Shown piece by piece: positions 27,145 through 38,854 of a DNA stretch of 64,000 nt; within the stretch, counting starts at the first letter, position 1, and the number at the start of each line of letters is the position of its first letter. Source of the DNA: Bacteroidales bacterium (GTDB lineage Bacteria > Bacteroidota > Bacteroidia > Bacteroidales > WCHB1-69); assembly GCA_016288655.1 (NCBI GenBank), contig JAEEKX010000003.1:1-64000 (forward strand). Direction: 5' to 3'. The notes beneath the pieces are model-generated. The model had not been told where the DNA came from and ran no database searches. It saw only the letters and a list, made by a program, of their open reading frames with translations. The position numbers and the translations under genes were made by a program.

Positions 27145-27387
27145 ATAACCATTAACCTTTAATGATACGTAAAGGATCTCTCCTTTTGTTGTTCACTTGT
27201 CTCTTACGCATGTTATAGACCAATGTTACAAAATTTTGAAAATTTTTTACGCATCACTATATTATACAACTGAAAAACCACAAAAATGTTGCCTGAGAGG
27301 GAAAAAAGAGAAGATATTGACATTTGCTGGGGGCTCGCTGCGCGAGAATTTGGGTACACGATAGAGGACGGTTGGAGATTGGGGAGA

Positions 27388-28110
27388 TTGGGAAGATTTG
27401 AGAGATTTGAAGATTTGAAAGATTTGAGAGGTTTGAGAGATTTGAAGATTTGAGAGATTTGAGAGATTTGAAAGATTTGAGAGATTTGAGAGATTTGAGA
27501 GATTTGAAAGATTGAAGATTTGAAAGATTATTAATGCGAACGAAGTGAGTATCAAATCTGCAAATGCGAGCGCAGCGAGCTCGAATGCGAACGAAGAGAG
27601 TATCAAATAATTGAGGGATTTGAGAGATTTGAAAGATTTGAAGATTTGAAAGATTATTAATGCGAACGAAGTGAGTATCAAATCTGCAAATGCGAACGCA
27701 GCGAGCTCGAATACGAACGAAGTGAGTATCAAATAATTGAAAGATTTGAAGATTTGAGAGATTATTAATGCGAACGAAGAGAGAATCAAATCTGCAAATG
27801 CGAGCGTAGCGAGCTCAAATGCGAACGAAGTGAGTATCAAATAATTGAGAGATTTGAAAGATTTGAGAGATTTGAGAGATTATTAATGCGAACGAAGAGA
27901 GTATCAAATCTGCAAATGCGAGTGCAGCGAGCTCAAATACGAACGAAGTGAGTATCAAATAATTGAGAGATTTGAGAGATTTGAAGATTTGAAAGATTAT
28001 TAATGCGAACGAAGAGAGAATCAAATCTGCAAATGCACGCGCAGCGAGCTCGAATACGAACGAAGTGAGCAGAATCCCAAATCCGAGCGCAGCGAGCAGA
28101 ATCCCAAAAT
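27388..28110. repeat. Nested tandem repeat array, five major units (starts ~27531, 27657, 27765, 27883, 28000)
   Basis: Units TTAATGCGAACGAAG(T/A)GAG...ATCAAATCTGCAAATGCGAGCGCAGCGAGCTC(G/A)AATACGAACGAAGTGAGTATCAAATAATTGA separated by variable numbers of ~9-10 bp GAGATTTGA subrepeats. Confidence 0.93.
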
Positions 28111-33973: not shown

Positions 33974-34004
33974 TTTGGGGATAAGCATTTTTTTTGTAAT
34001 TTTG
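33974..34004 (+). promoter_or_regulatory. Consensus Bacteroidota promoter TTTG-N19-TAATTTTG upstream of the RecQ/UvrD fusion gene
   Basis: TTTG 33974-33977, TAATTTTG 33997-34004, 19-nt spacer. Confidence 0.8.
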
Positions 34005-34036: not shown

Positions 34037-37000
34037 ATGGAACAATACGGTCCAAAAATCATTTTTTTTGACACGGAAGTGACGCTAAAGGACAAAAAAG
34101 TCAAGGATATTGGGGCAGTCAGTTCCGAAAATGTTGCTTTCCACTCGTCATCCAAGATCGCATTTATATCATACATTGCAAATGCCCAATATTTATGTGG
34201 ACATAATGTCGTACACCATGACCTGAGGTTCCTCCATTTGGACAATCTTCCTCAGGTGATTGATACACTTTATCTTTCTCCGCTACTGTTTCCGAAAAGG
34301 CCCTATCACTCCTTGTTAAAGGAGGATAAGTTGCAAGTGGATGAACTGAACAATCCAGTAAACGACAGCGAGAAGGCACGCAACCTTTTCTACGATGAAG
34401 TCAATGCATTTTTGTCTCTTCCGGCTGAATTGCAGTCCATTTTTTATGGTCTTTTGAATAAAGAAGCAGAGTTTTCGGGCTTCTTTCATTATATGAAGAA
34501 TGCCCACAACTGGATGCCTGTCATCAGGGGAGAGAGTCAGTTGACGGGTTTCATCGGTTCTTTTTTTACGGGGAAAATATGCGCACATGCTGATTTGTCG
34601 TTGTTGATTAGAAACGCGGCGGTTGAGTTGGCATATACTTTGGCTCTTGTTTTTGCTGATGACACACACTCAATCACACCCTATTGGTTGGTAAGAAATT
34701 ATCCTCAAATCGAGTATGTGATGAAAGTGCTGGTGGGAACTCCTTGTGTTGACGGGTGTGACTACTGTTCAAGGCATTTCAACATCCATGCTGGATTGAA
34801 GCGGTTTTTTGGGTATGATGGATTCCGTCTTTTTGATGGAGAGAATTTACAGGAACGTGCGGTTCAGGCGGCGGTGGATGGACAGTCGTTGTTGACGGTT
34901 TTTCCCACGGGCGGGGGCAAGTCGCTTACATTTCAGTTGCCGGCGCTGATGGCCGGAGAGAGCGAGCACGGACTGACGGTGGTGATCTCTCCATTGCAGT
35001 CGTTGATGAAGGATCAGGTGGATGGCCTTTATCAGCGGGGCATTTTGGATGTTGTCACGATCAATGGAATGTTGGATCCTGTGACTCGAGCCGATGGATT
35101 CAACCGGGTCCGCGACGGCTCGGCGTCGTTGCTTTATATCGCGCCCGAGATGTTGCGCTCGAAGACGCTGGAACGGCTTTTGCTCTCGCGTCACATCACC
35201 CGTTTCGTCATTGACGAGGCGCACTGTTTCTCTGCTTGGGGACAGGATTTCCGTGTCGATTATCTATACATTGCTGATTTTATCCGCAAATTGCAGGAAC
35301 AGAAACAGTTGAAGACACCCATTCCCGTCTCTTGTTTCACGGCCACAGCCAAGCCCAAGGTGATCGCAGACATTTGCGACTATTTTAAGTCAAAACTCAA
35401 TCTTGAGCTGCAATTATACGCCACCACATCCACCCGCAAGAACTTGCGTTATGTGGTACAATATGTTGAGACAGAAGAGGAAAAGTACAATGTGCTGCGC
35501 AATCTCATCTCTGGCCGTGATTGTCCGATCATCGTATATGTGTCTCGTACTCGCAAGGCGGTGGAAATAGCCGAACATTTGCAAAGAGACGGCATTTCGG
35601 CACTGCCGTTCCATGGCAAGATGGACACAAAAGAGAAGGTTGACAACCAAAACCGTTTCATCCAAGATGAGATTCAGGTCATCGTGGCCACGAATGCCTT
35701 CGGAATGGGAGTTGACAAGTCTAATGTGGGATTGGTGATTCACTACGACATTTCGGATTCGTTGGAGAATTACGTGCAGGAGGCGGGACGTGCTGGCCGC
35801 GATCCCAATACGAGTGCGCAATGTTATATTCTCTATAATGAAAGCGATCTGGACAAGCATTTCATCTTGCTTAACCAGACCAAGTTGAGCATGGCGGAGA
35901 TACAGCAGGTGTGGAAGGCGGTCAAAAGTCTTACTCGTCGCCGTCCTGAAGTCACCTGCTCCGCATTGGAGATCGCGCGACAGGCAGGCTGGGACAGCAA
36001 TGTCGGCGATGTTGAGACGCGAGTCAAAACGGCCATCTCCGCTTTGGAGACAGCCGGCTATCTGAAACGCGGCACCAATGTGCCTCATGTGTATGCCACC
36101 AGCATCCAAGTGAAAAATATGGACGAGGCCCACAAGAGACTGATGAACTCGCATCTGCTTGATGAACGTGGGCGACAGAATGCGGTCCGCATCATCAAAT
36201 CGCTCATCTCGTCGCGGAGTGTCGCCCAGGCTCAAGGTGAAGATGCGGAATCGCGCGTGGATTATCTGGCTGACATGCTGGGTTTGGAAAAGGAGGATGT
36301 GATTCGTGCCGTCAACACCATGCGACTGGAGGGAATCCTTAGCGATGAGCAGGATATCTCAGCTTACATTATGCCGAAAGACACCCGCGAAAAATTACGG
36401 TCATCACTGGATACATTCTCTCGTCTTGAACGCTTTTTGCTGTCGCAAATACCGGAGAGTGGCGCTGAGGTCCAATTGAAGGAGTTGAATGAAAAAGCTC
36501 AAACCGCCGAACTTCGCAATTCTTCTGTCAAAAATTTCAGAACGATCATCTATTTTCTCAAACTCAAGGGCTATTTTCGCAAAGAGGGTGGAATTGCGTC
36601 GGATACCATGCGACTCTCGCCCTGTTATGAGATGTCCAAGCTCCGCGATAGATCTGTCAAAAGGATAGAACTCTGCCGTTTTATTATAGATCAACTATAC
36701 CAAACCTACTTGGAACATTTTTCGACAGAAAAAGACAGGCCGATTACGTTTTCTCTGTTGGGATTGATGCAGGCATACCAAAAACACATTCAAACACAAC
36801 TATATACGGATCAAGTCACCCAACAAGTTACCCAACAAGATGTTGAGGAGGCCCTGCTGTATTTATCCAAAATCGGTACTTTGAATTTGGAGGGAGGTTT
36901 CATGGTGTTGTATAATGCCATGCAGATCAAACGGATCTCAGACAGCAGGCAATACAAGGTTGATGACTACCGGTTGTTGAATGAGTTCTATAAACAGAAG

Positions 37001-38854
37001 ATGCAGCAGATTCATATCGTTGGAGAGTATGCCAAACTGATGGTAAGCGACTATTCTGCCGCACTGCAGTTCGTTCATGACTATTTCTCTATTGACTTCA
37101 AGAAGTTTATTTCCAAGTATTTCAAAGGGGAAAGACGCAATGAGATAGAACATAACATCTCGCCAACGAAATATCAGCAGGTTTTTGGAGCGTTGTCGCA
37201 GGTGCAACTTCAAGTAATCAACGACAAGACGTCAAAATACATTGTGGTGGCGGCTGGTCCCGGGAGCGGAAAGACGAGACTGTTGGTGCACAAGTTGGCT
37301 TCTTTGCTGCTGATGGAGGATGTGAAGCATGAACAGTTGCTCATGTTGACTTTTTCGCGCGCTGCGGCAACGGAGTTTAAGAAACGTTTGGTGGATCTCG
37401 TTGGAGGTGCGGCGTACTTTGTGGAAATCAAGACATTCCACTCTTTCAGTTTCGACCTGATGGGTAAAATCGGGAATCTGGATGATTCCAAGGATGTGGT
37501 GAAACATGCCACTGATATGATCCGTTCGGGTGCGGTGGAACCCGAAAAAATAGCCAAGACGGTTTTGGTGATTGACGAGGCCCAGGATATGAGCGGCGAC
37601 GAGTTCGAGTTGGTGAAATCGCTAATGGAGCAGAATGAGGAGATGCGCCTCATCGCCGTGGGCGACGACGACCAGAACATCTACGAATGGCGCGGCTCCA
37701 ACTCATCCTATTTTCACTCATTGGTCACACAGTATCAAGCCACATTATATGAAATGGTCGATAACTACCGCAGTGAACGACGGATTGTGGATTTTGCGAA
37801 TACTTTTGTTCGCAAAATAAAAAATAGGATGAAAACCAATGAGATACATGCAATCCAAGAGGGTGGGGAAGTGTTGTGGATGGATTGTGACAGTCCCAAT
37901 CTGGAAACTCCGGTGGCGGACCATTTGAAAGCCAATCGACAAAGAGGCAAATGCTGTGTCTTGACGCTCAAGAATGAAGAGGCCTTCAGAATGCATGGCT
38001 TGCTGCTGAAGATGGGTATCCGTTCCAAACTCATTCAGTCAGTTGAGGGTTTTGCCTTCCATAATCTGGTTGAACTCCGCTATTTCGTGAAACAAATTGT
38101 GGATAGGGTCACTTCGCCTGTTATCAGCGATGAACTATGGCAACAGGCAAAAGAAAAAACCGAGCGCAAATACAAAGACAGTTTGTGTTTGGATAATATT
38201 TTGAATTTTATTGCTGATTTTGAAGGAGTTAACAAGAAAAAGTACGTATCAGACCTATTTGAGTTCATTAAGGAGTCCAACTATGAGGATTTTTATGACG
38301 ATGAGGATGACATGGTCTATATCTCAACCATCCATAAGGCAAAGGGACGGGAGTTTGATACGGTGTATATGATGATCAATCAGGCAAATACGATGACGGA
38401 CGAGGAATGCCGTAAACTTTATGTCGGTATGACACGTGCCAAACGTGCCTTGTTTATTTATACAGATAACCATTTGTTTTCAGATATGCGGTTGTCGGCA
38501 GCCCTTCATTTCCATGATACGAGAGTTTATCCGGAGTTGGAGGAGATTGCGGTGCAGTTAACCCACAAGGATGTCTATTTGGATTTTTTCAAAGGAAAAA
38601 AGAGTGACATTTTGAAACTGCATAGCGGCAGTCCGTTGTATGTGGTTGATGGCGGTTTGAACGCGAAAGTGGAAGGCAGGGTGCTTCCGATGGTGCGTTT
38701 TTCTTCAAGATGCAGACAGAAATTGGAAGAGTTGAAGGAAAAAAGGTATGAGTTGGAGCGTGCGGAGGTGGCGTTTGTTGTGGCATGGAAAGGCGAGAAC
38801 GACGCGGGTGAGTCGGCGGTGATACTGCCCCATCTTCACCTGCGCTTGCGATAG
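34037..38854 (+). CDS. 1605-aa DEDD exonuclease - RecQ-type helicase - UvrD-type helicase fusion
   Basis: Exo: IIFFDTEVT, LCGHNVVHHDLRFL, HSLLKEDKLQVDELNNPVNDSEKA; RecQ: FPTGGGKSLTFQLPAL, FVIDEAHCFSAWGQDFRVDY, QEAGRAGRDP; SF1/UvrD: VAAGPGSGKTRLL, VIDEAQDMS, GDDDQNIYEWRGS, STIHKAKGREFDTVYM, LYVGMTRAKRALFIY. Confidence 0.93.
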   Translation: MEQYGPKIIFFDTEVTLKDKKVKDIGAVSSENVAFHSSSKIAFISYIANAQYLCGHNVVHHDLRFLHLDNLPQVIDTLYLSPLLFPKRPYHSLLKEDKLQVDELNNPVNDSEKARNLFYDEVNAFLSLPAELQSIFYGLLNKEAEFSGFFHYMKNAHNWMPVIRGESQLTGFIGSFFTGKICAHADLSLLIRNAAVELAYTLALVFADDTHSITPYWLVRNYPQIEYVMKVLVGTPCVDGCDYCSRHFNIHAGLKRFFGYDGFRLFDGENLQERAVQAAVDGQSLLTVFPTGGGKSLTFQLPALMAGESEHGLTVVISPLQSLMKDQVDGLYQRGILDVVTINGMLDPVTRADGFNRVRDGSASLLYIAPEMLRSKTLERLLLSRHITRFVIDEAHCFSAWGQDFRVDYLYIADFIRKLQEQKQLKTPIPVSCFTATAKPKVIADICDYFKSKLNLELQLYATTSTRKNLRYVVQYVETEEEKYNVLRNLISGRDCPIIVYVSRTRKAVEIAEHLQRDGISALPFHGKMDTKEKVDNQNRFIQDEIQVIVATNAFGMGVDKSNVGLVIHYDISDSLENYVQEAGRAGRDPNTSAQCYILYNESDLDKHFILLNQTKLSMAEIQQVWKAVKSLTRRRPEVTCSALEIARQAGWDSNVGDVETRVKTAISALETAGYLKRGTNVPHVYATSIQVKNMDEAHKRLMNSHLLDERGRQNAVRIIKSLISSRSVAQAQGEDAESRVDYLADMLGLEKEDVIRAVNTMRLEGILSDEQDISAYIMPKDTREKLRSSLDTFSRLERFLLSQIPESGAEVQLKELNEKAQTAELRNSSVKNFRTIIYFLKLKGYFRKEGGIASDTMRLSPCYEMSKLRDRSVKRIELCRFIIDQLYQTYLEHFSTEKDRPITFSLLGLMQAYQKHIQTQLYTDQVTQQVTQQDVEEALLYLSKIGTLNLEGGFMVLYNAMQIKRISDSRQYKVDDYRLLNEFYKQKMQQIHIVGEYAKLMVSDYSAALQFVHDYFSIDFKKFISKYFKGERRNEIEHNISPTKYQQVFGALSQVQLQVINDKTSKYIVVAAGPGSGKTRLLVHKLASLLLMEDVKHEQLLMLTFSRAAATEFKKRLVDLVGGAAYFVEIKTFHSFSFDLMGKIGNLDDSKDVVKHATDMIRSGAVEPEKIAKTVLVIDEAQDMSGDEFELVKSLMEQNEEMRLIAVGDDDQNIYEWRGSNSSYFHSLVTQYQATLYEMVDNYRSERRIVDFANTFVRKIKNRMKTNEIHAIQEGGEVLWMDCDSPNLETPVADHLKANRQRGKCCVLTLKNEEAFRMHGLLLKMGIRSKLIQSVEGFAFHNLVELRYFVKQIVDRVTSPVISDELWQQAKEKTERKYKDSLCLDNILNFIADFEGVNKKKYVSDLFEFIKESNYEDFYDDEDDMVYISTIHKAKGREFDTVYMMINQANTMTDEECRKLYVGMTRAKRALFIYTDNHLFSDMRLSAALHFHDTRVYPELEEIAVQLTHKDVYLDFFKGKKSDILKLHSGSPLYVVDGGLNAKVEGRVLPMVRFSSRCRQKLEELKEKRYELERAEVAFVVAWKGENDAGESAVILPHLHLRLR

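Follow-up and report, generated by a model that had tools for sequence, protein, structure and literature searches.

A single gene in the window, the stretch of 64,000 nucleotides analysed here, encodes a predicted helicase-nuclease in which a DnaQ-like exonuclease domain, a RecQ helicase core and a UvrD-type helicase core follow one another on one chain of 1605 residues. The protein belongs to a scattered and frequently transferred bacterial family that is apparently unstudied so far: a search of the published literature found neither a RecQ-UvrD fusion named as such nor a functional description of its homologues. Our favored reading, tentative and somewhat short of an even chance, is that of a solo, horizontally transferred helicase-nuclease whose most likely role is a single-gene anti-phage or anti-plasmid function.

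Gene layout and promoter

The reading frame runs from ATG to stop without interruption, as a preliminary description of this DNA had claimed, and the features recognized in it are collected in Table 1. The motif residues of all three proposed catalytic modules are conserved, with one unusual residue, N105, in the first. Because this architecture is kept in more than 80 homologues, it is more than a chance joining of domains. The gene had also been described as standing alone with a promoter of its own, and both points hold. A search of both strands of the 64-kb window for TTTG-N19..21-TANNTTTG, whose chance expectation in the whole window is 0.39, returned the promoter of the fusion gene, with its TAATTTTG element, as the sole match, and the clustering of 980 neighboring proteins from 76 loci yielded no recurring partner gene, the only repeated context being an M13 peptidase locus in some Flavobacterium. 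In the window, the flanking genes encode an acyltransferase and a metallo-beta-lactamase-fold protein. Elsewhere in the window, an AT-rich tandem-repeat array (27375-28108) lies between thiL-like and 2-oxoacid oxidoreductase genes; it is built from a 9-bp unit, GAGATTTGA, inside larger units of 108, 126 and 234 bp, and contains spurious ORFs.

Table 1. Features of the fusion gene and its promoter (window coordinates).
Feature	Position	Strand	Basis or role
Bacteroidota-type promoter, TTTG-N19-TAATTTTG	33974..34004	+	Pattern match; 33 bp 5' of start codon
Exonuclease-RecQ-UvrD fusion gene	34037..38854	+	ORF listing; full-length homologues
Predicted DnaQ/RNase H-fold 3'-5' exonuclease domain, residues 1-126	34037..34414	+	AF2 model, Foldseek, hhalign, invariance
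Exonuclease D12/E14	34070-34078	+	Predicted metal ligands
Exonuclease GHNVVHHD (D62)	34199-34222	+	Predicted metal ligand
Exonuclease NNPVND (N105, D110)	34349-34366	+	D110 predicted metal ligand; N105 at His position
Helical extension with probable C4 metal site	34415..34786	+	Four Cys co-occur; helical in model
C182	34580-34582	+	Fourth member of probable C4 site
C237, C241, C244	34745-34768	+	Probable C4 site
RecQ SF2 helicase core, residues 254-616	34796..35884	+	Pfam DEAD + Helicase_C; TIGR00614; phmmer
RecQ Walker A TGGGKS, residues 291-296	34907-34924	+	Motif
RecQ DEAH, residues 393-396	35213-35224	+	Motif
Linker, residues 617-1050	35885..37186	+	AF2 pLDDT 70; weak winged-helix Foldseek matches
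UvrD-type SF1A helicase core, residues 1055-1475	37199..38461	+	Pfam; conserved motifs
UvrD Walker A GPGSGKT, residues 1074-1080	37256-37276	+	Motif
UvrD DEAQ, residues 1180-1183	37574-37585	+	Motif
C-terminal tail, residues 1476-1605	38462..38851	+	Weakly conserved, no domain

The N-terminal exonuclease domain

The domain search that had been suggested for this protein recovered the RecQ and UvrD cores, and the exonuclease proved invisible to Pfam: residues 1-255 gave no Pfam match, and a PDB sequence search with the exonuclease profile returned chance matches only. Structure prediction, likewise suggested, was more informative. The AlphaFold model of this region, built from a 27-sequence alignment, reached a pLDDT of 89 and displays an RNase H-like topology, and its two best Foldseek matches in the PDB are both to S. 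aureus DinG, with a probability of 1.00, an E-value of about 1e-3 and a query-length TM-score of 0.47. As this E-value is modest, two further lines of evidence were added. Residues 23-93 are matched by a PHROG model for an exonuclease subunit of DNA polymerase (E = 4e-4), and hhalign to RNase_T proteins taken from related genomes gave probabilities from 76% (local) to 91% (global), pairing D12/E14, GHN..HD62 and D110 with the DEDD ligands. When the catalytic residues were sought in alignments, D12, E14, D62 and D110 were found to be invariant, in 86/86 homologues.

Membership of the DEDD (DnaQ-like) exonucleases calls for an RNase H-like fold and four acidic metal ligands (D, E, D, D), and the model topology, the Foldseek and hhalign matches and the ligands all place the domain there. 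The two subclasses are defined by a catalytic His five residues before the last Asp (DEDDh) or a Tyr four residues before it (DEDDy), and neither assignment survived. In the hhalign alignment, the DEDDh His position corresponds to Asn105, which is Asn in 85 of the 86 homologues and Ser in the remaining one, while residue 106, at the DEDDy position, is Asn in 83, Asp in two and Ser in one, and Tyr in none. Since Asn105 aligns to the His and position 106 lacks the Tyr, the predicted exonuclease is a member of the DEDD superfamily outside both subclasses. The exonuclease first proposed for this protein therefore stands as to its fold and its DEDD ligands, but the NNPVND motif assigned to it carries an Asn and not the expected His. 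This substitution could mean a weak or altered nuclease activity, and its invariance raises the question of what that catalytic position needs. At four of the 80 genome-contig loci (L031, L059, L060 and L086), the exonuclease part is a separate ORF just upstream, split off by a frameshift or stop that reflects either sequencing error or natural splitting.

Ahead of the RecQ core, the preliminary description had noted a cysteine cluster. The CVDGCDYC sequence is indeed present, but it supplies only three of the four members of the probable C4 site, the one overlooked being C182, some 55 residues upstream of C237/C241/C244. The co-occurrence of all four cysteines in 84/86 homologues suggests a C4 site for zinc or an iron-sulphur cluster; the Aliarcobacter and Nostoc proteins are the ones that have lost the set.

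Two helicase cores and the linker between them

The RecQ and UvrD motifs originally reported were found at, or very near, the nucleotides assigned to them, and are conserved among homologues. In the first core, the GRAGRD motif was confirmed, the Pfam DEAD/Helicase_C span covers residues 271-588, the NCBIfam RecQ subfamily model TIGR00614 scores 279 bits against a cutoff of 219.8, and phmmer aligns the region with E. coli RecQ (1oyw) at E=8e-55. A RecQ-type SF2 core with motifs I-VI places it in the broad RecQ helicase family. A canonical bacterial RecQ (TIGR01389) was ruled out, as the score is 312 vs 640 bits and the RQC, Zn-binding and HRDC domains are missing. In the second core, GDDDQNIYEWRG and VGMTRAKRAL were confirmed, and Pfam reports UvrD-helicase (PF00580, 4.6e-31) and UvrD_C (PF13361, 6.3e-24), both above cutoffs. 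The presence of both UvrD domains, Walker A, DExQ, the QxxR region and motif VI is that of the UvrD/PcrA/Rep SF1A helicases; the core falls short of the equivalog cutoffs for PcrA, UvrD and Rep, and is thus an orthologue of none of the three. The helicase motifs are conserved in 80 aligned homologues and kept in the full-length homologues of Aliarcobacter, Rhizobium, Sulfitobacter and Nostoc, so that both sets are intact across four phyla.

The RecQ (SF2) and UvrD (SF1A) families both translocate in the 3'-to-5' direction, unlike RecB/RecD. The initial notion of two opposing-class helicases is therefore correct in that the cores belong to different superfamilies, but not as regards direction, which by family is 3'-to-5' for both. 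Two such motors combined with a nuclease pose the question of whether they run along the same strand or along opposite strands.

The linker (residues 617-1050) showed no match to RQC, RecQ Zn-binding or HRDC domains nor to any Pfam family, and a PDB sequence search with its profile gave chance matches only. Its AF2 model, of moderate confidence (pLDDT 70), weakly resembles strings of winged helices in Foldseek, and the linker is probably a row of such domains. It also holds the family signature, EGGFxVxYN ... QQIHIVGEYA.

Distribution of the family

Full-length homologues, 26-60% identical, occur in Bacteroidota, Campylobacterota, alphaproteobacteria and cyanobacteria, and plasmid homologues (at least 74% of the protein covered) are found in these same groups. 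In NCBI they are labelled only 'RecQ family ATP-dependent DNA helicase', in line with the earlier suggestion that similar fusions might be so labelled, and a conserved cross-phylum family is hidden behind this one-domain label. The distribution is sparse: homologues were found in 9/40 relatives (two of them split over contigs and one known from end fragments alone) and in 11 of the 247 further Bacteroidota genomes with a completeness of 90% or more. In the latter sample, every match to the N-terminal domain lay within an open frame of 1601-1731 aa, which indicates that the exonuclease travels with the fusion. The genome of the window has two other, separate RecQ proteins (40-41% identity).

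Among 50,697 phage records, matches were RecQ-only or partial, none covering most of the fusion protein. The family-specific middle region was detected on seven IMG/VR contigs, a small sample biased towards mobile elements; the ORF is full length in L207-L209, L211 and L212, and the call starts later in L210 and L213. Five homologues from MAGs labelled Clostridia/Bacillota (L019, L023, L024, L026 and L030) form one clade, which may represent real cross-phylum transfer rather than misbinned contigs, since Shine-Dalgarno-like purine runs precede the starts of L024 and L026.

Horizontal acquisition

Horizontal acquisition of the gene, proposed from the outset, is supported by its composition, its sporadic presence, an incongruent tree and differing loci. 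Its GC3 is 0.554 vs 0.70-0.85 in the 15 genes of the window that served as baseline, which bears out the earlier impression that it is more AT-rich than its neighbors. In a quick tree, where the window protein forms a long branch, orders are intermixed, with at least 5 changes needed for Flavobacteriales, 6 for Bacteroidales and 4 for Cytophagales, and two members of the window's family (G017 and G013) are placed among Chitinophagales/Flavobacteriales. Universal synteny with core-genome composition, which had been named as the pattern that would contradict acquisition, was looked for and not found: carriers within the window's genus have no flanking proteins in common, and the locus differs in every checkable congener carrying the gene. 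In two sister genomes, the interval that separates glyA from the following conserved block measures 110 bp in G004 (L174 4547-4658) but about 8.4 kb in G005 (L153 6578-14955), where it holds the fusion gene and a neighboring hydrolase-like gene. At the window locus itself, neither the nadD-side nor the nadB-side neighborhood is kept in the congeners examined, and an empty site is therefore not definable there.

When 59 locus pairs with a DNA identity of 75% or more were compared, homology ended at most 200 bp from the ORF in 58, and only 10 pairs, all Flavobacterium, had any neighbor family in common within 6 kb. Such abrupt ends are not in themselves proof that the gene was transferred singly, because intergenic DNA diverges fast and core-gene synteny also decays within this genus. 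Inspection by eye of the boundary sequences for transposon ends or terminal repeats revealed no conserved motif beyond the promoter region.

Neighborhood and possible function

The anti-phage role suggested in the preliminary description was not established by the neighborhood survey. Around 75 chromosomal homologues, the 296 genes lying within 3 kb showed no significant enrichment of PADLOC matches over 270 control genes drawn from randomly chosen stretches of the carrier genomes (18/296 vs 12/270, p = 0.45), the 18 and 12 being estimates and upper bounds, since PADLOC reports families and not proteins and distinct proteins were counted generously. No PADLOC model has a matching architecture. 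Single chromosomal loci do have clear defence neighbors, namely an HsdR-like protein in Arenibacter, an Argonaute pair in Owenweeksia, PDC-S06 in a Flavobacterium and, in a Chitinophagaceae MAG, a type II R-M pair. On virus-like contigs, the homologue lies beside a type II R-M pair (L213), two DNA methyltransferases (L210) or an IrrE-type peptidase and a methyltransferase (L208), and L211 has a weak PDC-S01 match. In L207 (1-8063), it lies immediately downstream of a pair of large serine recombinases, an arrangement like that at the edge of an integrated element. Carriers in the window's genus have housekeeping or ordinary neighbors, and annotated plasmid neighborhoods contain partition, SSB and HipA genes and are not defence islands. 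The random control stretches (L134-L152) include matches to the Shango (SngABC) and PARIS (AriAB) models, so the carrier genomes hold other defence systems.

A working cycle can be proposed for the protein. A DNA end, fork or recombination junction would be bound by the winged-helix region and opened by RecQ and UvrD, probably along different strands; if the two motors ran on opposite strands, a duplex or fork could be opened from two sides. Trimming of the exposed 3' ends would fall to the N-terminal DnaQ-like domain. In this way, the protein might remove or remodel DNA without normal host processing, such as linear phage DNA, plasmid replication intermediates or stalled forks. The rare, patchy, single-gene occurrence of the family, at variable loci and on plasmids and virus-like contigs, argues for conflict with mobile elements over housekeeping repair. 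Given that the biology of the gene is accessory and mobile, foreign DNA is the likelier target, a judgement that falls a little below an even chance and leaves accessory repair and a mobile-element helper as serious rivals. A defence role is plausible, although unproven; if true, the system would consist of one gene and would lend itself to transfer and testing. The broader proposal of an undescribed, widespread single-gene immunity family, combining in one chain a DnaQ-like exonuclease of a new His-to-Asn subclass, a C4 site, RecQ, winged helices and UvrD, is more doubtful.

A serious but less probable alternative to the favored reading is that the protein serves recombination or repair as an accessory enzyme, in effect a WRN-like exonuclease-RecQ to which a UvrD motor has been joined, helping hosts to survive DNA damage or stalled forks and spreading because it is occasionally useful. 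Every domain is indeed a repair or recombination domain, no toxin, modification or sensor partner is conserved, the neighborhoods in the genus are housekeeping, and the T. thermophilus HB27 DnaQ-DinG-RecQ fusion is catalogued among strain-specific DNA-metabolism genes (PMC1274311). However, carriers make up less than 5% of genomes, the window's genome is already provided with two separate RecQ proteins, and a core repair gene would not usually be so patchy in its distribution or so mobile by itself.

It is rather unlikely that the gene serves the replication, transfer or counter-defence of plasmids or integrative elements themselves, the chromosomal copies being remnants. The long or complete plasmid-borne copies known from four phyla, the parAB genes adjoining the Aliarcobacter copy, the SSB and partition genes near that of B. 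finegoldii and the recombinases of L207 would fit this origin, but most copies are chromosomal, recombinases, relaxases and integrases are absent from the repeated-neighbor analysis, the phage records lack a match covering most of the protein, and homology stops at the ORF and not at element ends. Finally, an ordinary core-genome RecQ, unusual in appearance only, is highly improbable despite its NCBI label, as the separate RecQ proteins in the same genome, the absence from most relatives, the atypical composition, the missing RQC and HRDC and the low recQ equivalog score rule out a housekeeping RecQ.

Comparison with known systems

The closest relatives are true homologues with identical domain order, represented by WP_022275194.1, WP_151029446.1, WP_271690178.1 and WP_179069529.1 (~1600-1700 aa, 26-54% identical), in which the RecQ label covers one domain out of three. 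WRN likewise carries a 3'-5' exonuclease N-terminal to a RecQ core, but this exonuclease is DEDDy, RQC and HRDC are present, UvrD is lacking, and the exonuclease part of the fusion has no sequence match to it. ExoDinG (S. aureus or B. subtilis DinG), the best fold match to the exonuclease, also has an N-terminal DnaQ-like exonuclease, a helical bundle and a helicase (PMC11981726, PMC12525004), although the helicase is a single XPD-like one and the exonuclease a canonical DEDDh.

Among defence systems, Gabija (GajAB) combines a UvrD-like helicase, GajB, which aligns to the UvrD core, with a nuclease, and acts on DNA ends (PMC12407980); its nuclease, however, is of the OLD/TOPRIM type and on a separate protein, and RecQ is absent. 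Membership was rejected, as there is no GajA OLD-type ATPase-TOPRIM partner and the 76 loci lack a conserved neighbor. The model of the RecQ-like PsyrT of PsyrTA (RqlHI) matches the RecQ core, but PsyrTA is a two-gene toxin-antitoxin-like system with neither exonuclease nor UvrD, and it was discarded because no phosphoribosyltransferase-type antitoxin is adjacent in the window or recurs in the 76 loci. RecBCD and AddAB offer a functional likeness only, as helicase-nucleases on DNA ends, and differ in their PD-(D/E)XK nuclease, multi-subunit composition and lack of RecQ. WRN, ExoDinG, Gabija and PsyrTA each have one or two modules in common with the fusion and fail in their defining features.

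The nearest published precedent found is the three-domain DnaQ-DinG-RecQ fusion on the T. thermophilus HB27 megaplasmid (PMC1274311). By its description, it likewise unites a nuclease and two helicases in one strain-specific, plasmid-borne protein, its second helicase being DinG (XPD-like SF2) where here it is UvrD (SF1A). The present protein is a helicase-nuclease of a known kind in a new form.
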